Virus record (IMG/VR): IMGVR_UViG_3300037585_005648
Span: 1-23,890 of that record
From: a virus
Direction: 5' to 3' (one strand)
DNA: 23,890 nucleotides
Part shown: positions 5,373 through 18,949 of the stretch, one piece after another
Numbering within the stretch: the stretch's first letter is position 1
How the letters are laid out: every line of letters starts with the position of its first letter
The notes under the pieces: generated by a model
What the model was told of the DNA's origin: nothing
Database searches by the model: none
Seen by the model: the letters and a program-made list of their open reading frames with translations, nothing else
Made by a program: the position numbers and the translations under genes

Positions 5373-6046
5373 TGGCTCATGGAACAGGAAGGGGCGGATG
5401 CTATGATATAGCCCTAGAATATAAAAATCAATCTCCCACCCAAAAGGGTAAAGCTAGACTTTGGGAAGACACAAACGGTGTGTCTACTATTAAGCTTAAT
5501 CAGTGGCAAGGTCTCCATACTTCAAGTATAGGCACACCCGAGTATTACAACCTAATACCCTATTTCGAGGATCTAAATCTTTACCAAAACGATCCGCAAG
5601 GGGGAATCGATTTCCACGTTGTTTTAAAATACCAAACTCAAACCGTCAATCCTCTGAGCCTTCGAATATTAGAAGTGGTTCCAGGCGAACATTCAGTAAA
5701 GCTTGTAGTTGAACGTATAAATGGCAACAGTCCAAACTTTGAAGCATTAGAACCTTTACCATCTATAATTTGCTTTCCTCATCCTCCTGGAGAATCTAGC
5801 GATGACGGAGATTTTTATGATGATGGTTCTATAGAATCTGATGAGAATAGAGCAGGAGACGGTCCAGTTGACGATGGAGTAACTCTAGAATACACAACCG
5901 ACATAAAGGTGCTAGAAGACATACTACCAGGATCCCCATTGATATATGATGGTGACGATTTAACCATCATTATGGATCTAAGACTGATTACATACAAGCC
6001 ATCTGCCTTGGCCGAAATATTGGATCCAACCTTTAAGAGTTACTAA
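5372..6046 (+). CDS. acidic baseplate-region protein, function unknown
   Basis: A 224-residue protein with TAATG overlaps at both ends, so it is translationally coupled to both neighbours. The N-terminus MAHGTGRGGCYDIALEYK is followed by a beta-rich part (residues about 45-130: LIPYFEDLNLYQ, GIDFHVVLKYQTQTVNPLSLR, VKLVVERING). Residues about 143-175 are a highly acidic Gly/Asp/Ser linker (GESSDDGDFYDDGSIESDEN), and the C-terminus returns to strands (DGDDLTIIMDLRLITYKPS). The acidic linker may bind metal ions or act as a flexible hinge. The position between the beta-sandwich protein and the giant tail protein suggests a baseplate or fibre-attachment component. I do not recognise a named family. 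Confidence 0.65.
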   Translation: MAHGTGRGGCYDIALEYKNQSPTQKGKARLWEDTNGVSTIKLNQWQGLHTSSIGTPEYYNLIPYFEDLNLYQNDPQGGIDFHVVLKYQTQTVNPLSLRILEVVPGEHSVKLVVERINGNSPNFEALEPLPSIICFPHPPGESSDDGDFYDDGSIESDENRAGDGPVDDGVTLEYTTDIKVLEDILPGSPLIYDGDDLTIIMDLRLITYKPSALAEILDPTFKSY

Positions 6047-9000
6047 TGAGCATCCCTAAGAAATACGATCTCCCGGAAATTGACAATGTGCTGAGCCGCT
6101 ATGAGACCTCACCTGTAAATTCCGGCAATGGAGCGGGAATATTCTTTAGGTGGCAACTGCTTGTTGGTGGATCTCCCTTTGATAGTTCCAAAATATCTAA
6201 TTACCTGGCTTCTACCGCTGGGAGCTTTAAAGTCGATGGAGATGGAAGACACACCTTAGACTTTAATCTTAAAAATTTACTTGGGTCGAATAAATATAAT
6301 CCAGGCTCATATGCCCTAAGATTGTATACCCACGTAACCCCTCACAACGAGACTTCAACAAGGGCACTAGAATTCTATGTAAAAGCTATATCCTCTAAAA
6401 AGGATGAGATTATACTTGGGGTCCACGACCACCTTACTTTAGATGGAAATACTTCTGAGGTGAGGTACCAATCATCGACTTACCAATCAGCACTTACAAG
6501 CTTTGTTAGTAATATCCTACCATTAGATAATCTGGTATTATCGTTGGCCGATGGCTCTGTTGTTAATATCATATCTAATAAATTGGTGTCTGGAACTGGA
6601 TATAAGACTTTTGAACTCGCTGTAAAATTATCCAAGGGAATTGCCAAGAACATAAAGCCAGGTCAACGTGCCAAGATAGAGATTCAGATAACAGAACCAA
6701 GGGAATGGGATATAATTATTCCTCAACCACCTTATGTCGAAGATCTCAACATAATGGCTCTGCCAGATTTCACGATCAACTCTGCTACATCACAAGGTCC
6801 TCTATCTTCAAAATATGAAACGTGGACATCCCTTCTCGGTTCAAATGAGGATGTTAAAAATAAATTACTAAATGCAACTTTTAGCGGATCAAATGCAACT
6901 TCTGCAGAACTGGGAATCGATTATAGAAAGTATGAGAACTTCGTACACTTCAGTTCTGCTAAAGAACGCCTTGATAATTTCAAATATAAGATCCAATTGA
7001 TAGAGTATTATGATTCTCAATCAGTAGCATTAAGTGCTTCGGCATCTCCAGCAGCAGAAGTAAATAGAGTCCAATTTGTAACTAAGAAAAATGACATCAT
7101 ATCTAAATTTGATGCCTATGAGGACTATCTATATACCGAATCATCATCATATGAAAATGGATCTTATGGTATCTTTAATGCTTCCACTTGGCCAAAAACA
7201 AACTCGTCAATACCATATACTCTAGCCCATTCTACATCATCGGCATTTAAAGAATGGTACGCTACCCAATCAGCAACCGCACTTGACTATGATATAGACA
7301 ATGCATACAACCTAGAAAAAACTATACCTGCTCACGTAAGACTAGATCCTGAAAATGCAAACTACCTGATGTTTGTAAATATGATAGGTCAAAACTTCGA
7401 TCATGTTTACAACTACATTGATCATATGGATATGATTCATGACAGACAAAATGAGCTTCACCTAGGGCTATCTAAAGACTTGGTTTGGGATGTTCTGAAG
7501 TCTCTTGGTTGGCATGGTATCAATGGCTACAACTTCGAAGACCTATGGGCATATAAATTAGGAACTGACGAATCAGGAAGCTATCAAGCAACAGATTCTG
7601 GAAGCACCCAAACATATGTCAATGCTTCGTCAATGCCTACCGAAGACATTACAAAAGAAGTTTGGTCTAGAACTTTAAATAACCTACCGCACCTCATTAG
7701 TACAAAAGGAACTGAAAGATCTGTAAGAGCCTTGGTGAATACTTATGGACTTCCTCCCACAGTTCTACGTATAAAAGAGTATGGTGGAACTCCTAAGGAA
7801 ATGTCAACCAACCAATATATCAAGTATGAGAACTCAGGATACTCTCTTAATTTTGATGGGAACCAATGCATAAAGACCCCATGGAGCAAGTTAGATGCTG
7901 ACGACTATACCCACATACCAACGGATAAAGCCCCTGATACTATTGAGCTTCGCTTTAATACTTCAACACCTCAGAACTCTTTATTAATACACTATGCAGA
8001 TTATTGGGGCATAGAACTAGAGGCTCACCCATCGGCATCAAATGAGAGTTCTGCATACCACAATCATGGGAGGCTATGGCTTGGGGTAGAAAGCGGCTCT
8101 GGTGGGACCTGGACCGCTACGTCTTCTGCTTATCACCCGCTGTTCGATAATGATTGGTGGAACATTCAGTTTGGGATCTCTGGGCAAGTATTTAGTCTAG
8201 ATTTAAAAAAATCTGCTGACCACTCTAATGGTCGTATAACCCACGAAGAAAAAATAGCATGGACCCATGATGGACGTTCAGATACCAACATATGGAACAG
8301 GACAGCATCTCCTCACAGTCTTGCCCTAGGTAATCACCACCCCTCTTTCGGAGCTACTTATAAATGGACAATGGCTTCAGGCTCTACAGTTGCTGCAGGT
8401 ACCCTTGGAGGCTACACTGGAAGCATGCAGGAGTTAAGATACTGGGCATCCCCATCTAATCCAAGACTAAGCGATGCCGCATTTGATAATCACGTTCTTT
8501 CACCACTATCTATTGAGGGCAATACCTACACATCATCATATACTGACCTAGTAGCCAGATGGCCAATGGGTGCAACAGGAGTGACTGCTAGTTTAAATAG
8601 CGTAACTCTGCCATCAAAGCATCCAAATCAAAATATATCTACAGCATCTTTTGATCACGCAACACCAACGATGATATTATCAGGATCTGGATATACTGGC
8701 ACTTCGGCAGACTGGCAATACGAAGAGGAGACATTCTACACAGTGGTTCCCGAAATTATTGGCACAAGAGCAGTCTCAGATAAAATCAGAATTGTCGATT
8801 CAACATATTCTGGAAGTCTTTATAGGAATAGCTCAGTGGTATCTAGCTCAACAGAACTATCGGCACCTGACTCACCACTTCTTGGAGTATTCTTTTCTCC
8901 TAATGATGATATAGATCTCGACATATCTCACACAATTGGTGGCGCGAAGTTCGACGACTTTGTTGGTAATCCAAGGGATGCATATCGAACCTCATATAAG

Positions 9001-9741
9001 GAATTGGGCCATATCCGAAATCATTATTGGCAGAAATATTTAGCTGCCCCTTCATTCACAGCTTACCTTAAGGTTCTAAAGTATTTTGATACTTCGTTAT
9101 TCCTACAGCTCGAATCGCTACTTCCAGCAAGGGCCAATAAACAAACCGGGCTATTGATCAAACCAAATCTTCTGGAAAGACCTACAATAGCAAGGGTGTC
9201 TGAATCTTTCGCAGATCTTACATATGAACAAGTAGAAGGTGTAGACATAACCCTCTACTCATTCAGCACATGGACTCCAGAGCCTCTAATTACCGCCACT
9301 GCTAAAACCTATATCATTAATGGTCGGGACACAAAGGCGAGTGCGACCACTAACTTACCTAATAGCTTTGACGATTCATTAGCTACTTCTTATGGGATTA
9401 GTAACATAGCTTCTGTTGATGTGCCAATTTATGACCGCTCAACAGTAAGTAAACGTTACAGAACTCAGGCAACGGATGGCACAGACACTTCGGTGTCAGT
9501 TCAAGAATTCGTTCCAGCAGGAATTGCCAATCAAAGATATGCAGGATCCAAATATGGAAAGGTGGGTGGATCAATAGGTGGGATTATAAACTTAATAAAT
9601 GATCCATCAGTTACTGGTAAGGGTTTATTCGACGCAAGTACAAATATAAAATGTGCAATTGAGGTAGTAGAAACAAATCCAATAGAATTAACAACAACTC
9701 AAGGGCCACTAACGGCTCTGGGCGATATACAAATTAGATAA
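6046..9741 (+). CDS. large baseplate/tail protein with embedded lectin-like (LamG) domain
   Basis: A 1231-residue structural protein, the largest here, in the place T4 gene 7 occupies after gene 6; I see no clear sequence match to gp7. Residues 1-230 are beta-rich. Residues about 300-330 contain YENFVHFSSAKERLDNFKYK. Residues about 433-580 are helical (NYLMFVNMIGQNFDHVYNYI, then LSKDLVWDVLKSLGWHG) and include TKGTERSVRALVNTYGLPP, whose KGT-SVRAL pattern recalls gpI-type tail proteins. Residues about 600-845 look like a concanavalin-type jelly roll (SLNFDG, DTIELRFNTS, NDWWNIQFGISG, YTGSMQELRYW). Residues about 945-1050 carry DDFVGNPRDAYRTSYKEL, LKYFDTSLFLQLESLLPAR and TGLLIKPNLLER. The lectin domain suggests glycan contact at the host surface. 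Family and fold are inferred by eye. Confidence 0.75.
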   Translation: MSIPKKYDLPEIDNVLSRYETSPVNSGNGAGIFFRWQLLVGGSPFDSSKISNYLASTAGSFKVDGDGRHTLDFNLKNLLGSNKYNPGSYALRLYTHVTPHNETSTRALEFYVKAISSKKDEIILGVHDHLTLDGNTSEVRYQSSTYQSALTSFVSNILPLDNLVLSLADGSVVNIISNKLVSGTGYKTFELAVKLSKGIAKNIKPGQRAKIEIQITEPREWDIIIPQPPYVEDLNIMALPDFTINSATSQGPLSSKYETWTSLLGSNEDVKNKLLNATFSGSNATSAELGIDYRKYENFVHFSSAKERLDNFKYKIQLIEYYDSQSVALSASASPAAEVNRVQFVTKKNDIISKFDAYEDYLYTESSSYENGSYGIFNASTWPKTNSSIPYTLAHSTSSAFKEWYATQSATALDYDIDNAYNLEKTIPAHVRLDPENANYLMFVNMIGQNFDHVYNYIDHMDMIHDRQNELHLGLSKDLVWDVLKSLGWHGINGYNFEDLWAYKLGTDESGSYQATDSGSTQTYVNASSMPTEDITKEVWSRTLNNLPHLISTKGTERSVRALVNTYGLPPTVLRIKEYGGTPKEMSTNQYIKYENSGYSLNFDGNQCIKTPWSKLDADDYTHIPTDKAPDTIELRFNTSTPQNSLLIHYADYWGIELEAHPSASNESSAYHNHGRLWLGVESGSGGTWTATSSAYHPLFDNDWWNIQFGISGQVFSLDLKKSADHSNGRITHEEKIAWTHDGRSDTNIWNRTASPHSLALGNHHPSFGATYKWTMASGSTVAAGTLGGYTGSMQELRYWASPSNPRLSDAAFDNHVLSPLSIEGNTYTSSYTDLVARWPMGATGVTASLNSVTLPSKHPNQNISTASFDHATPTMILSGSGYTGTSADWQYEEETFYTVVPEIIGTRAVSDKIRIVDSTYSGSLYRNSSVVSSSTELSAPDSPLLGVFFSPNDDIDLDISHTIGGAKFDDFVGNPRDAYRTSYKELGHIRNHYWQKYLAAPSFTAYLKVLKYFDTSLFLQLESLLPARANKQTGLLIKPNLLERPTIARVSESFADLTYEQVEGVDITLYSFSTWTPEPLITATAKTYIINGRDTKASATTNLPNSFDDSLATSYGISNIASVDVPIYDRSTVSKRYRTQATDGTDTSVSVQEFVPAGIANQRYAGSKYGKVGGSIGGIINLINDPSVTGKGLFDASTNIKCAIEVVETNPIELTTTQGPLTALGDIQIR

Positions 9742-12368: not shown

Positions 12369-12815
12369 ATGAGTCATTGGAAATACAAAGGCACACCTCT
12401 GTCTGAAGTTCCCAAAGGATTTTTCGGTTTTGTTTATATAATTACCAATAGTAAAAATGGTAAGAAGTATATTGGCCGGAAGTACTTCGGAACCACAAGA
12501 AGAGTTAAAGTGAAGGGCAAGACCCGAAGAAAAGTCGTTAGAAAAGAGTCTGACTGGAGGACTTATGTAGGATCCTCTAAAACTCTTACCTCGGCAATAG
12601 AAAAGTTTGGATACGATAATTTTACTTTTGAAATTCTATTCCTAGGGGAAACAAAAGGCCAAGTCAACTACATGGAAGAAAACATCCAACATAAAGCAAA
12701 TGTGATGATACGGGATGATTATTATAATGATTGTGTAGGTTCTAGGAAGTTCGTCTCTGTTAAGTTTACCGATAGATCAAAAGCATTAATTTTTGAAACA
12801 AACCTCCCGAAATAA
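12369..12815 (+). CDS. GIY-YIG family nuclease
   Basis: A 148-residue protein with a GIY-YIG catalytic core. The first motif is FVYIITNSKNGKKYIGRKYF (residues 21-40: VYI at 22-24, YIG at 34-36). A basic stretch with candidate catalytic Arg44/Arg45 follows, then ESDWRTYVGSS (60-70), a GYDNFTFEIL strand (81-90), YMEENIQ with catalytic Glu103 or Glu104, and YYNDCVGSRKF (118-128). It would cut DNA using one metal ion. There is no separate DNA-binding domain such as I-TevI's, so it is a stand-alone minimal form. It starts seven nt after the structural genes and precedes the primase. From recall, the same small GIY-YIG protein is common as a free-standing gene in T4-like phages. Homing or host-DNA degradation are both possible; no intron boundary is seen. 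Confidence 0.85.
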   Translation: MSHWKYKGTPLSEVPKGFFGFVYIITNSKNGKKYIGRKYFGTTRRVKVKGKTRRKVVRKESDWRTYVGSSKTLTSAIEKFGYDNFTFEILFLGETKGQVNYMEENIQHKANVMIRDDYYNDCVGSRKFVSVKFTDRSKALIFETNLPK

Positions 12816-12852: not shown

Positions 12853-13770
12853 ATGATTAAACAGAAGATAAAGCAGATATTAGAGAGTGTTCTTGGACAT
12901 GGTCATGATAAGAACTATGGAGATGTATGGTTTAATTGTCCGTATTGTCACCACCCAAAACCCAAGCTATCCGTAAATATAATAAATCAGAAATGGCAAT
13001 GTTGGGTCTGTGGTAAGAAGGGTAGAAAGCTTGTAAACATATTAAAATCCCTTCAGGCATCATACCAGAAGATTAAAGATCTGAATAAGTTAGTAGGTGA
13101 GGTGGATGACTTCAAGGTTGAGAAACAGCAGACATTCCTAGCTCTCCCATTAGAATACATTCCAATACTAGAAGGTAATATGAGAAGTCCAGACTTCAGA
13201 AATGCTGTATCATACCTTAAAAAACGAGGCATTGAGAAGTATGATATTCTCAGACATTCAATAGGCTATTGTGAGTCCGGGGAATACGGTGGCATGATAA
13301 TAATACCTAGCTATGATAGTTCAGGTGAACTTAATTACTTTACTGCCAGATCGTTTTATGATACTGATTTCAAACATAAGAATCCAAAGGTGTCAAAGGA
13401 TATTATTGGATATGACTTATTAGTTAATTGGAGTGAGCCTATTAATATTGTAGAAGGACCTTTCGATGCATTGACAGTTGGTGAGAATGCTATTCCTCTA
13501 TTTGGTAAGATGATTCAAAAGGCTCTTAGGTATAAAATCCTACAAAACAGGGTTACAAGAGTTAACTTATTATTAGACGCAGATGCAAGAGTTAAAGCAT
13601 TAGAACATGCAGAATTTCTTATGAACAATAATGTAGAAGTTCATATGGTAGATATGGAAGATTCAGACCCAGCAGATCTAGGTCGTTCCAAAGTTTTAGA
13701 ATTAATATCAAAGTCATCTAAATTGACTTTCGGAAAATTGATGGAATATAAGCTATATGCAAAAGCTTGA
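12853..13770 (+). CDS. gp61: DNA primase, gp61 / DnaG type
   Basis: A 305-residue primase that would make RNA primers for lagging-strand synthesis with a gp41-type helicase (not in this window). An N-terminal zinc ribbon has CPYC (29-32) and CWVCG (50-54), with strands between them as in the DnaG/gp61 zinc-binding domain. The Toprim catalytic core is at about 145-275: IVEGPFDALTVG with Glu201, LLLDADARVKAL with Asp242 and Asp244, and DPADLG (272-277). These are the acidic residues expected to hold metal for primer synthesis. Length is close to T4 gp61 (342). No helicase domain is fused, unlike T7 gp4. It overlaps the next gene by 14 nt, so primase and recombination nuclease are co-translated. 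Primase rather than a topoisomerase-like Toprim protein is favoured by the zinc ribbon. Confidence 0.87.
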   Translation: MIKQKIKQILESVLGHGHDKNYGDVWFNCPYCHHPKPKLSVNIINQKWQCWVCGKKGRKLVNILKSLQASYQKIKDLNKLVGEVDDFKVEKQQTFLALPLEYIPILEGNMRSPDFRNAVSYLKKRGIEKYDILRHSIGYCESGEYGGMIIIPSYDSSGELNYFTARSFYDTDFKHKNPKVSKDIIGYDLLVNWSEPINIVEGPFDALTVGENAIPLFGKMIQKALRYKILQNRVTRVNLLLDADARVKALEHAEFLMNNNVEVHMVDMEDSDPADLGRSKVLELISKSSKLTFGKLMEYKLYAKA

Positions 13771-16700
13771 TATTGGAATTAGCTCGGTAGAGCAAATACT
13801 TCATATTGCAGACATACACATCAGGAATTATAATCGTCATGATGAATATAGAAAAGTATTTAAGGAACTATACAAAGCCGTAGATGATTTACCTAAGAAT
13901 GCCATAGTATACATTGCAGGAGACCTTGTACATAATAAAATAGATATGTCTCCAGAACTTATTGACTTGACATCTGAATTTCTAAGAGAGCTTGCAGATC
14001 GTAGACCAACAGTATTCATTCGTGGTAATCATGATATGAATCTGAATAATAAAAGTCGTATGGATGCTTTAAGACCTATATATGATAGTTTGAAGCACCC
14101 CAATCTCCACTATTTAGATTCAACGGGAGTTTATGAAACCGAAGACTTATATCTTAGTGTATTTGATATTGCTGATGAAGTTGACAATTATGTAAAGGCC
14201 GATGACATACCTGATGACAAACTTAAGGTTGCATTATTTCATGGGGCCGTAGACTCATCTATGACGGACGGAGGGTTCAAAGTAACAAATCTAAACCATG
14301 GAATAGGAATATTCTCAGGCTATGACCTAGTGTTATTAGGAGATATCCATAAACATCAATACCTTGATATTGATAAAAGAGTACATTATCCAGGATCTCT
14401 AGTACAACAGAACTTTGGGGAATCTTATGATAACCATGGCTATACCATCTGGCAGACAAAGGACTTATCTAGTGTTTTCACACACATACATAATGACCAT
14501 GGATTTTATACTATTGATATTGTAGATGGAATACTTCCTAATATTAAAGATATACCAAAGTTTCCAAGACTGAGAATTCGCACAACCAATACTACTGAGG
14601 CCGAACTTAAAAAACTATTAAAGACCATTCGTAGAAAGTCAACTTTCACTGATGCCATGGTTATAAAAATGGATAAGGTAGCAGGGTCTGCTACAAACAA
14701 GACTTCCAAGGCATTAACCAATAATGTAAGGGATGTAGAGTATCAGAATGAGCTTATAGGTGAATACATTGAAAGGAATTTTGCTGCGGATCCATCTATA
14801 ATTGATAGGGTTAAGAATATCAATAGAGGACTCAATACTAGCTTATCCCCAGTAGAAATATCCCGAAATATATTTTGGAAAGCAAAGAACTTTGAGTTCT
14901 CAAACATGTTTAGTTATGGGCCAGATAATACTATTGATTTCAATAAGGCATCTGGATTGATGGGACTATTCGCTGCGAACCATTCTGGTAAGTCTGCCAT
15001 TCTTGATTCTATAGCATTCTGTTTATTTGATAAGTGTAGTAGAACAAAAAAGGCCGAGGACGTTATGAACAACAAATCTTTAAACTTTTATTGTAAGTTT
15101 AATTTTGAAGTTGATGGAGTAGACTTCTTTGTTGAACGAAAAGCAAAACGAGTGAAGTCTGGAAAATCAAATGTTAGAGTTGATGTTAATTTTTGGATGA
15201 TAGGTGAAGATGGAAGTGAGATATCCTTGAATGGAGAACAGAGGCGAGACACGAACAAAAACATCAGAGGCTATGTTGGGACTTATGAAGACTTTGAATT
15301 AACGGCGCTATCAGTTCAGAATAATAATACTGGATTCATAAACAAATCCCAAACTGAGAGGAAAGATCTTCTAGCTCAATTTATGGATATAACTGTATTT
15401 GAAGAAATCTATGGATTAGCTAATGAGGAGATTCGTGATGTCCAAGCATCACTAAGGGAGTTTAAAAAGATGGATTATGATCAACAGTTGCTAGATGCCG
15501 AACTTGCATTAACAAAGTCAACTGAAGAATATAATTCTGCTACGGAAATAGAAGCTACTGTCAAGATAGAATTGGCAGACTTAACTAGAAAAATATTAGA
15601 AGGTTCTAAAAAACTTAGAAAGGCTATTACATGCAATGATATTGATGCTTTAGTTGAAGTATCAAGTAGTTTGGCTGATTCCCTACACAAGGAGAAGGAA
15701 ACCTTGTCAGGTTTAGATAGACAGACTTCGAAGAATAAAAATTCTTATGGTGAGATATGTTCAGATCTAGCAGAAATAGATATCCAGAAGGTTGATTCGA
15801 AAGTTGCAGAATATTATTCGGCGGTATCTACTAAAGATGAAATAGAAACACAATTAACCATACTGATAGCTTCAGCTAAGCAAAAACGCAAACTTGTGGA
15901 TGAATTGGAAAATCATTCTTACGATCCTGAATGTTCATATTGTGTTGATAATCCTTTTGTTAAACAGGCCCAACAAGCTAAAATAGAATTAACAATTGAT
16001 AAAGAGACTGTGGCATCATATGCTAAAGAAATTGAAAAATCGCAAAGTGTTATAGAAGACTTATCGACATATATTGAAGATAAAGCTCGTTATGACACCT
16101 TAAAAGTCCGCCTAGCAGACATTAAAGCTAAACAATCTGACATCAAGGTTTTCAAGTCTAATACAAATCTAAATATCAACAAATTAGAGGCAAAGCAGAA
16201 TAATAATGATTTGGTTATTAGAGAGTATCATGCTAATAAAAGAGACATTGAGCACAACAAATTAATTCAAGCCAATCTATCAGTTTTGGAAAATGATTTG
16301 GATATAGCTACGGCATACTTGGAAGATGCACAATCTTTAGTAAAACAAAAACATACCCAACGAGCACTTGCAGAGACATCAATAGCACAGATAGAAGAAT
16401 CTATCGAGAATGCCAATGATGTTGAAAATAAATTAAAAGCCTATGAATATTATCTAGAGGCAATCAAAAGAGATGGTGTACCATATGAATTAATCTCTGA
16501 GGTACTTCCATTGATACAGGATGAAGTTAATGATATATTAGCACAACTTGTAGAGTTTACAATTGTATTTGAAACAGATGGTAAAAACATCCTGACCTTT
16601 ATAAAATATGATAAAAGCTCATGGCCATTAGAATTAACATCAGGAATGGAGAAGTTCATTTCGTCACTAGCAATAAGGGTTGCTCTGATTAATGTTTCGA

Positions 16701-16909
16701 ATTTACCAAGACCAAACTTCCTGGCAATTGACGAGGGATTTGGCACATTGGATTCTGAAAATCTTAATAGTATGTTTATGTTGTTTGACTACTTAAAATC
16801 TGAATTCTCATTCATTTTAGTTATATCCCACTTAGATGCATTAAGAGATGTGGCGGATAACCTATTTGAAATTAACGTAACCAATGACTTTAGTGAAATC
16901 ACATTTTGA
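13757..16909 (+). CDS. gp47/gp46: fused recombination nuclease: gp47 (SbcD/Mre11) joined to gp46 (SbcC/Rad50)
   Basis: A 1050-residue protein joining both subunits of the end-processing nuclease that are separate in T4 (gp47, 339; gp46, 560). Residues about 13-240 are a calcineurin-type phosphoesterase: HIADIHIRN (Asp19, His21), GDLVHN (55-60), GNHD (90-93), FHG (161-163) and GDIHKH (195-200). Residues about 375-560 are the ATPase N-lobe, with P-loop AANHSGKS (406-413) and a Q-loop in LSVQNNN. A long coiled coil (about 560-900) has a zinc hook CSYC (726-729) in its middle. The C-lobe holds signature LTSGMEKF (960-967), Walker B FLAIDE (988-993), D-loop GTLDSEN and the switch His of SH (1024-1025). 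All motifs needed for metal and ATP binding are present except the first P-loop Gly, replaced by Ala406. It should resect DNA ends for recombination-dependent replication. One open frame, no internal stop. Confidence 0.93.
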   Translation: MQKLDIGISSVEQILHIADIHIRNYNRHDEYRKVFKELYKAVDDLPKNAIVYIAGDLVHNKIDMSPELIDLTSEFLRELADRRPTVFIRGNHDMNLNNKSRMDALRPIYDSLKHPNLHYLDSTGVYETEDLYLSVFDIADEVDNYVKADDIPDDKLKVALFHGAVDSSMTDGGFKVTNLNHGIGIFSGYDLVLLGDIHKHQYLDIDKRVHYPGSLVQQNFGESYDNHGYTIWQTKDLSSVFTHIHNDHGFYTIDIVDGILPNIKDIPKFPRLRIRTTNTTEAELKKLLKTIRRKSTFTDAMVIKMDKVAGSATNKTSKALTNNVRDVEYQNELIGEYIERNFAADPSIIDRVKNINRGLNTSLSPVEISRNIFWKAKNFEFSNMFSYGPDNTIDFNKASGLMGLFAANHSGKSAILDSIAFCLFDKCSRTKKAEDVMNNKSLNFYCKFNFEVDGVDFFVERKAKRVKSGKSNVRVDVNFWMIGEDGSEISLNGEQRRDTNKNIRGYVGTYEDFELTALSVQNNNTGFINKSQTERKDLLAQFMDITVFEEIYGLANEEIRDVQASLREFKKMDYDQQLLDAELALTKSTEEYNSATEIEATVKIELADLTRKILEGSKKLRKAITCNDIDALVEVSSSLADSLHKEKETLSGLDRQTSKNKNSYGEICSDLAEIDIQKVDSKVAEYYSAVSTKDEIETQLTILIASAKQKRKLVDELENHSYDPECSYCVDNPFVKQAQQAKIELTIDKETVASYAKEIEKSQSVIEDLSTYIEDKARYDTLKVRLADIKAKQSDIKVFKSNTNLNINKLEAKQNNNDLVIREYHANKRDIEHNKLIQANLSVLENDLDIATAYLEDAQSLVKQKHTQRALAETSIAQIEESIENANDVENKLKAYEYYLEAIKRDGVPYELISEVLPLIQDEVNDILAQLVEFTIVFETDGKNILTFIKYDKSSWPLELTSGMEKFISSLAIRVALINVSNLPRPNFLAIDEGFGTLDSENLNSMFMLFDYLKSEFSFILVISHLDALRDVADNLFEINVTNDFSEITF

Positions 16910-16966: not shown

Positions 16967-18949
16967 ATGCCGTTCATTAAACTGAACCAACCTAAATATT
17001 TATCACAAGGCCAATATTTAATAGCGGACACAGATCCTGATTCAACATATTTCGACGTAAGTGAAGTCCCTGATATTCTAACTGGGGGTAAGAATCTATT
17101 TATGCTCAAGGGTAATAAAAGTTTATTGGCTCCTGGTTCTACAATCGAAATAGAAGTAACAGATCTAAACGGCAGAGTCATTTACCATGAAAATGCTAAT
17201 TATCTAGAGCCTGGTACAAAAAGACGTGCAGTGGCAATTTATGTGTATGAACACACTCCTCAAGGTGGTGGAGTCATAACCATAACAGGAACAGCCCAAA
17301 AAAGACCTAATGGGAAATCCATTTCGTTGGATCTCCAAAAAGCCCCTAATGTGAAATGGCAGAAGAAAATAAATGTATTACCTCAAAATGAAAACACAAC
17401 AAGGGTAATTCTTAATAGAACTCCCGTAGTACAAATAGAGGAAGTTATTAGAGAATACTTAACCCCTACAGGGGGGATTACCTCCGGGGTTGTTACAAAT
17501 GCTTCTTCGAATAGCTTTTTTAGTTTTACTAATGAGGGAGACTTTTTCACATCTCCAGATACTTCATACGGCTATTTACACACTACCGAATCTTACTTCC
17601 TTGGAACGATGCTGGGAGGCCAGGTCAGTATATGGAATATCACTGACGACCAAATGAACTTCAACTCAGATGGGGATACGTTTACCACAAATACCCAAAC
17701 TAATGGGAGCAGTTCCCTGACATTTATAGTATCTCAGGTAATAAATGATAAAAAAGCCAAAGTTACTCCTGCATGGCAAACATCCGTAACTACTACTATA
17801 GCCGATCATTATGAGCCAGGTGGTGGGTTTGTCCAAGGCTACTCTACAATTAATGCTGCTACATATCCTATGGGGTTCGATGAGGGAGCCAATCATTTTC
17901 ATGCGTATCAACAGCCTACAACATGGGTTTCTGAAACTTTAAATTCCCAGTCTTTTGCTAAAATCGATATAGCAGAATTAGATCCTATATGCGGAGATAT
18001 AAAACGACTAGTGGTTTATAAAAGATCCCAAGGTGTCCAACAATGGCATTTTGTTACTGATGTTATATTGGAAAACAAAGAACAACTTGCTAGAGATGAT
18101 GCCCAAGGGTTAAACCAAAACCTAGGAGACTTTTCAACACAAACCGTTTTAGATACATACTGGACCGGATCGTTCGGCGGATATGACGGAACAGCTCCAG
18201 GATCGACGCCCTACATTTTATCAGACCCGTCAGTATTTATTAATGGAGCTGTTATATCTGGCTCGGAAGTACTAGTTGCTGCAACTAGTACAACCGAATC
18301 CCGATTAGATGCCTATGCGGAGTTCAAAATGGAACCATCTGCTGACTGGAATGGTGACGGAGCAAGTACTACTGGAGTTGCTCTTAAAGCAAACACCAGT
18401 TATATTCTATCAATGAAATTAGCCGCACAGGCGGTAAATGATGGAGTTGATAGGCCTATTATTAAAATATTCGCTTCAGGCTCTGCTATTGATTTGCCTA
18501 CTGAAGATTCAACAATGCGTAAGTTTGCAACCATACAAGCAAATTCAGAACTCGTTGCCGGCAAGACTCCAGCACTAAGCATATTAGATGAGACTACTTT
18601 AAACTATAATTTTGATGTTTCAACAGCTGGGGATATGGGAGTCGTCTTTCGAATAGTCTCTGGCCGATGGTGGATATCTGATGTTAGTATAAAGCCTGCA
18701 TCCCAAACTGGATTCACTCCAAATCATACTTCTATAGAGTTCCCAATGGAACAGATTGCACAGCAAAACGATGTTGTAGATTTTAAATTTGAATTGTATG
18801 ATAATATTGGAAACCTAGTCCATACAGAAGCAACCCAATCTTTATTATGGTCTGGCGGTAATGTAGCTATAAATGGGGATAATAATGTTATAGAAGGATC
18901 CTTGATTGTAGGTTCTGGCATAGTGTTTGAAGGAGTGAGTACAGGTTAA
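16967..18949 (+). CDS. large beta-rich tail structural protein preceding the fibre genes
   Basis: A 660-residue protein with no membrane segment. The N-terminal 155 residues (KYLSQGQYLIADTDPD, NLFMLKGNKSLLAPGSTIEI, RAVAIYVYEHTPQGGGVITI, NVKWQKKINVLPQNEN) form a strand-rich domain that I recall at the front of marine myophage tail genes; it probably anchors to the baseplate. Residues about 400-585 look like a galactose-binding-type sandwich (EFKMEPSADWNGDG, TSYILSMKLAAQ, VVFRIVSGRWWISDVSIKPA). The end (about 585-660) has FTPNHTSIEFPMEQI and NVIEGSLIVGSGIVFEG, the latter like the fibre modules downstream. It abuts the S74 fibre gene with no gap. The likely role is a tail or fibre-base adhesin; the carbohydrate-binding idea is an inference from strand pattern only. 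Confidence 0.72.
   Translation: MPFIKLNQPKYLSQGQYLIADTDPDSTYFDVSEVPDILTGGKNLFMLKGNKSLLAPGSTIEIEVTDLNGRVIYHENANYLEPGTKRRAVAIYVYEHTPQGGGVITITGTAQKRPNGKSISLDLQKAPNVKWQKKINVLPQNENTTRVILNRTPVVQIEEVIREYLTPTGGITSGVVTNASSNSFFSFTNEGDFFTSPDTSYGYLHTTESYFLGTMLGGQVSIWNITDDQMNFNSDGDTFTTNTQTNGSSSLTFIVSQVINDKKAKVTPAWQTSVTTTIADHYEPGGGFVQGYSTINAATYPMGFDEGANHFHAYQQPTTWVSETLNSQSFAKIDIAELDPICGDIKRLVVYKRSQGVQQWHFVTDVILENKEQLARDDAQGLNQNLGDFSTQTVLDTYWTGSFGGYDGTAPGSTPYILSDPSVFINGAVISGSEVLVAATSTTESRLDAYAEFKMEPSADWNGDGASTTGVALKANTSYILSMKLAAQAVNDGVDRPIIKIFASGSAIDLPTEDSTMRKFATIQANSELVAGKTPALSILDETTLNYNFDVSTAGDMGVVFRIVSGRWWISDVSIKPASQTGFTPNHTSIEFPMEQIAQQNDVVDFKFELYDNIGNLVHTEATQSLLWSGGNVAINGDNNVIEGSLIVGSGIVFEGVSTG

Follow-up and report, generated by a model that had tools for sequence, protein, structure and literature searches.

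This locus raises the question of whether the Mre11-type phosphoesterase (SbcD, gp47) and the Rad50-type ATPase (SbcC, gp46) are genuinely encoded here as one chain, and what such an enzyme would be and do. The DNA analysed, hereafter the window, is a 23,890-nucleotide fragment of a phage genome (positions 1 to 23,890 of IMG/VR record IMGVR_UViG_3300037585_005648), in which an ATG-initiated frame of 1050 codons with no internal stops occupies positions 13757 to 16909 of the plus strand, on which all features given below are located. Our preferred reading, held with a probability of about 0.93, is that this gene of a T4-like aquatic phage specifies a one-chain Mre11-Rad50 nuclease (SbcD-SbcC, gp47-gp46) of the Mimivirus R555 type, which would supply 3′ ends for recombination-dependent replication.

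The assignment of the frame to a one-chain gp47-gp46 nuclease, first proposed in a sequence-only reading of the window, is supported by Pfam and PHROGs domains of both halves. The Pfam families Metallophos (PF00149; residues 14-199, E 8e-10) and AAA_23 (PF13476; residues 382-613, E 2e-11) were both matched over their cut-offs, SbcC_Walker_B (residues 961-1010, E 0.001) was matched below its curated cut-off, and the PHROGs matches were phrog_100 SbcD (residues 14-339, E 2e-28) and phrog_77 SbcC (residues 239-1048, E 3e-46). The phosphoesterase core (residues 14-200; 13796 to 14356), defined by PF00149 and side-by-side comparison of motifs, contains five motifs (D19/H21, G55-D56, G90-N91-H92-D93, H162 and G195-D196-I-H198), in which D19, H21, D56, N91, H92, H162, D196 and H198 are invariant in 49 aligned full-length relatives with a mean column identity of 65%. 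The N-lobe of the Rad50 head, placed by PF13476 and the model from strand 1 at residue 373 to about residue 544 (14873 to 15388), carries the P-loop (406-413) and Q521, and is followed by modelled coiled-coil arms of approximately 170 residues each (about 546-718 and 733-903; 15392 to 16465), at whose predicted tip lies the zinc-hook CxxC (726-729; nucleotides 15932-15943). The C-lobe (16466 to 16906) holds the signature LTSGMEK (959-965), Walker B (988-993, with D992-E993), the D-loop (998-999) and the H-loop residue H1025. Walker A, Q-loop, signature (SGME), Walker B and H-loop were all found to be conserved in the alignment of the 49 relatives, and the P-loop, both zinc-hook cysteines (C726 and C729) and the Walker B and H-loop residues are, like the metal ligands, invariant. 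The statement that every motif of both enzymes is present was accurate as to positions, but two motifs depart from the classic form: motif V reads GDIH and not GHxH, and the P-loop starts with Ala (A406) instead of Gly, each being invariant in the 49 relatives. Six of the seven metal ligands are unchanged, while the seventh, equivalent to His206 of the Pfu enzyme, is Asp (D196).

In most T4-like and Twort-like phages, gp46 and gp47 are distinct genes that lie side by side, so that the loss of one stop codon would suffice to create an apparent fusion. It may be asked whether the frame arose by erroneous joining of two neighbouring genes during sequencing or assembly, or whether translation from an internal start yields separate subunits. 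Scanning viral contigs gave 390 related stretches, the best 80 of which were retained; in every one of these 80 a single frame crosses the joint between the two enzymes, as it also does in Microcystis phage Mel-JY01. A single frame over the full length was present in 74 of the best 80; of the others, five are truncated at the end of the contig and one (L076) has its frame broken within the coiled coil. As the same frame is shared by relatives from independent contigs, an assembly error or frameshift was ruled out, and the claim of a single uninterrupted 1050-codon frame holds. With regard to internal initiation, no conserved start codon bearing a Shine-Dalgarno-like site was present between residues 230 and 384 in the 49 relatives; M384, the sole internal ATG that is invariant, falls within the Rad50 domain and is preceded by such a site in none of them, and internal initiation is therefore very unlikely. 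In addition, the block spanning the joint (residues 361-373) is 13 residues long in 49/49 relatives. We thus regard an artefact of either kind as extremely improbable, and the single-chain enzyme as real. The search for the same fused architecture in phage and metagenome proteins, which had been proposed as a check, recovered it in the viral-contig relatives and in several named phages. A plasmid origin was rejected, there being one weak plasmid match only, as was a cellular origin, for which only three matches to genome contigs were obtained. The latter (L103, L104 and L105) are small contigs with fused genes, binned to metagenome-assembled genomes (MAGs) of Candidatus Nitrosopelagicus, Chloroflexi and an unclassified bacterium; they are probably phage contigs, and may provide hints as to hosts.

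The region between the two enzymes had been read as a linker of about 130 residues at the position of the Rad50-binding helices of Mre11. A bare spacer was rejected on the strength of its conservation and the structure models; rather, the models place the helices themselves in this region, together with a capping domain and a loop. Two AlphaFold models agree on a capping domain at residues 250-304 (14504 to 14668; strands 250-256, 271-277 and 300-304, helix 281-294), which is also indicated by fold matches, on disorder at about residues 306-325 (14672 to 14731) and on two helices at residues 327-341 and 346-361 (14735 to 14839). The pLDDT falls below 50 at the centre of the loop, and the corresponding block (306-326) varies from 19 to 22 residues across the family, while R325, Q330, N331 and N356 are conserved in and around the helices. 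The model of residues 1-375 (pLDDT 86, pTM 0.77) had as its top PDB fold matches 3tho_B, 3qg5_C and 3av0_A, all of which are Mre11 chains from Mre11:Rad50 complexes, and models of the fused protein matched both SbcC/Rad50 and Mre11 folds; the whole-chain model (mean pLDDT 81, pTM 0.46) does not place the nuclease confidently relative to the ATPase. A profile of the nuclease half aligned with split gp47/SbcD proteins nearly to their C-terminus (query to 353-354), although the helix-loop-helix stretch alone gave no significant match in sequence-profile comparison (E about 0.05-0.14), and the identity of the helices is taken from the models and fold matches. Together, the models, the Mre11 fold matches and the near-full profile alignment suggest that the Rad50-binding helices were most likely kept in the fusion, and that the joint proper is confined to approximately 11 residues (362-372; 14840 to 14872). 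This predicted joint agrees with the 9-12 residues proposed for R555 from the Thermotoga maritima complex (PMC3175470). The architecture, as drawn from sequence and models, comprises an intact nuclease core, a capping domain, a Rad50-binding helix-loop-helix, an 11-residue joint, and two ATPase half-domains separated by arms with a zinc hook.

The Asp in motif V and the Ala in the P-loop could change the activity of the enzyme, but a loss of activity is not expected, as metals are commonly liganded by Asp and the general Walker A pattern permits Ala. It could nevertheless be argued that the fusion has left recombination and acts mainly as a tether of DNA ends or a degrader of host DNA, its nuclease having been altered by the His to Asp exchange, since Asp196 is invariant in the clade whereas His occupies this position in the proteins of T4, cyanophages, Twort-like phages and E. 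coli. We consider this very unlikely, given that the remaining metal ligands are all kept, that GDLH also occurs in a T5-like D12 homologue (phiLLS), that Mimivirus R555 has Asp at the equivalent position (PMC3175470), and that fusion phages represented by long contigs retain a gene of the UvsX/RecA family.

The sequence-only reading held that the fusion fixes a 1:1 ratio and places both active sites in cis. The ratio is indeed fixed by the fusion, but split Mre11-Rad50 complexes are already 2:2. The second statement stands only in part, as two heads contribute in trans to the ATPase site of Rad50: in Mre11-Rad50, ATP joins two heads in trans, and hydrolysis opens them so that DNA gets to the nuclease (PMC13402864). 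Fusion guarantees equal amounts and joint inheritance of the two enzymes, and does not on its own bring the composite ATPase site into cis. By extension, two fused chains would associate as a homodimer equivalent to the M2R2 complex of split enzymes, in which each helix-loop-helix would sit on a coiled-coil base, most simply that of its own chain, and two ATPs would be held in trans between the heads. Hydrolysis would open the heads and bring DNA ends to the metal-dependent nuclease site. By analogy with T4, the protein may generate 3′ single-stranded ends on which a UvsX/RecA-like recombinase of the phage would act during repair and recombination-dependent replication; a contribution to the breakdown of host DNA is also possible. 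No biochemistry on this fused phage clade was found in our literature search.

The genomic context was examined for the window and its relatives. A DnaG-type primase gene (12853 to 13770; assigned with PHROGs) overlaps the fusion by 14 nt, and a primase lies directly upstream of the fusion in 77 of the 79 relatives with enough upstream DNA. A gene of the RecA/UvsX family was present in 7/14 records searched, the seven records lacking it all being fragments of less than 100 kb. Mel-JY01, the closest isolate (40% identity to the window protein), has annotated genes for RecA, PolB, a gp41-type helicase and a clamp loader. In a profile search of 12 records, in which the interrupted SbcD half of LR756508 was not scored, the fusion was the sole clear SbcC/SbcD homologue in 11, the exception being the 735-kb phage LR756501, which has another clear SbcC-like gene. 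The occurrence of a single copy alongside RecA/UvsX and other replication genes supports the view that the fused protein would replace the split gp46/gp47 pair, as opposed to being an addition to it, and would act in a T4-type pathway. As the window covers only 23.9 kb of its phage genome, a separate gp46/gp47 might nevertheless lie elsewhere in this particular phage. LR756501 apparently carries both a fused SbcD-SbcC gene and a separate gp46-like gene (LR756501.1, 670999-672753 and 278528-282133).

A number of further observations were made at these loci. In a 484-kb phage (L084; LR756508.1, 6600-7640) the fused gene is interrupted by approximately 0.9 kb just after the motif V sequence GDIHKRQ; this insert contains an ORF whose product has the N-terminal domain of a TnsA-like endonuclease, matched no intron in Rfam, and may possibly represent an unrecognised intron or a mobile insertion at an active-site codon. 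In the window, a GIY-YIG (SegE-like) homing endonuclease is encoded just upstream of the primase (12369-12815), and is probably mobile, since it was present at only 9/74 related loci with enough upstream DNA; its best PHROG match, PHROG 447, is labelled 'NAD synthetase', apparently in error. Downstream of the fusion, a 660-aa protein (16967-18949) without Pfam or PHROG matches accompanies the fused gene in 73/87 loci searched. A 1231-aa protein without a PHROG match is encoded in the baseplate/tail region (6046-9741).

The origin of the fusion was addressed in a tree of 31 proteins, in which split genes were concatenated and from which R555 and the giant-virus proteins were left out. The window family, Mel-JY01, LR756501, pT24, PTm1, PAU and MA9V-1 formed one fused group (support 100/99), which also fell on one side of a branch in trees of the single halves (SH-aLRT 97 and 96), while the fused protein of phage XacN1 grouped with the split pair of phage 121Q (support 100/99). 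The latter placement requires at least two fusions; the deeper order is uncertain owing to many long branches. In a BFVD fold search with the window model, DNA repair proteins of Mimivirus-group giant viruses led the matches, with Tupanvirus first (E 4e-74, 25% identity). One old fusion could have given rise to a lineage common to aquatic tailed phages and giant viruses, in which the Asp ligand, the P-loop Ala and SGME would mark a mechanistically distinct sub-type, but we regard this as doubtful. BFVD also lists a 1009-aa fused protein for Listeria phage LMTA-57 (A0A068CB47), whose relatives usually have split genes; it would be either a further fusion of separate origin or the product of a sequencing error.

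The novelty that had been implied for the fusion does not hold, as the R555-type architecture was described in 2011, when Yoshida, Claverie and Ogata reported that Mimivirus R555, along with twelve further proteins, is an Mre11/Rad50 fusion (PMC3175470). That study noted the GDxxH change and the Asp for Pfu His206 in R555, and argued from metagenomes that the relatives of R555 are for the most part encoded by aquatic phages and that primases occur in their neighbourhood; it drew on short metagenomic reads and called for longer sequences (PMC3175470). The window protein has both domains with Mre11 first, GDxxH, and Asp for Pfu His206, and the gene is a clear, full-length case of an already published kind of fusion that is common in large phages. 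No subsequent publication on this phage clade was found in our literature search. The loci described here supply the longer sequences: the fused genes are full-length, a primase is their fixed neighbour, and the genomes also contain T4-like replication genes. A one-chain Mre11-Rad50 whose halves are linked by a short, fixed joint would, in addition, be convenient for structural work on communication between nuclease and ATPase.

Among known systems, the T4 gp47/gp46, cyanophage and Twort-like pairs comprise the same enzymes and act in the same presumed pathway, but unlike the window protein they consist of two chains with a GHxH motif V and the classic P-loop Gly. ORF305 of Xanthomonas phage XacN1 is a one-chain SbcD-SbcC of 1099 aa which lies outside the window clade and thus represents an independent fusion. 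The one-chain proteins of the phages pT24 and PTm1 (Tenacibaculum), MA9V-1 (Chryseobacterium), PAU (Sphingomonas) and LR756501 belong to a well-supported clade with the window family, but are longer (1202-1326 aa as compared to 1050 aa) and far diverged; that of LR756501 is approximately 26% identical to the window protein and has no primase directly upstream, and PAU has GHIH in motif V in place of GDIH. A further close parallel in design is R555, which shares with the window protein a Mre11-first single chain, GDxxH in motif II, replacement of Pfu His206 by Asp in motif V, a proposed short joint after the helix-loop-helix and aquatic viral relatives that adjoin primases, but which has 1351 aa, a longer coiled coil and a virus of amoebae, and not a tailed phage, as its carrier.
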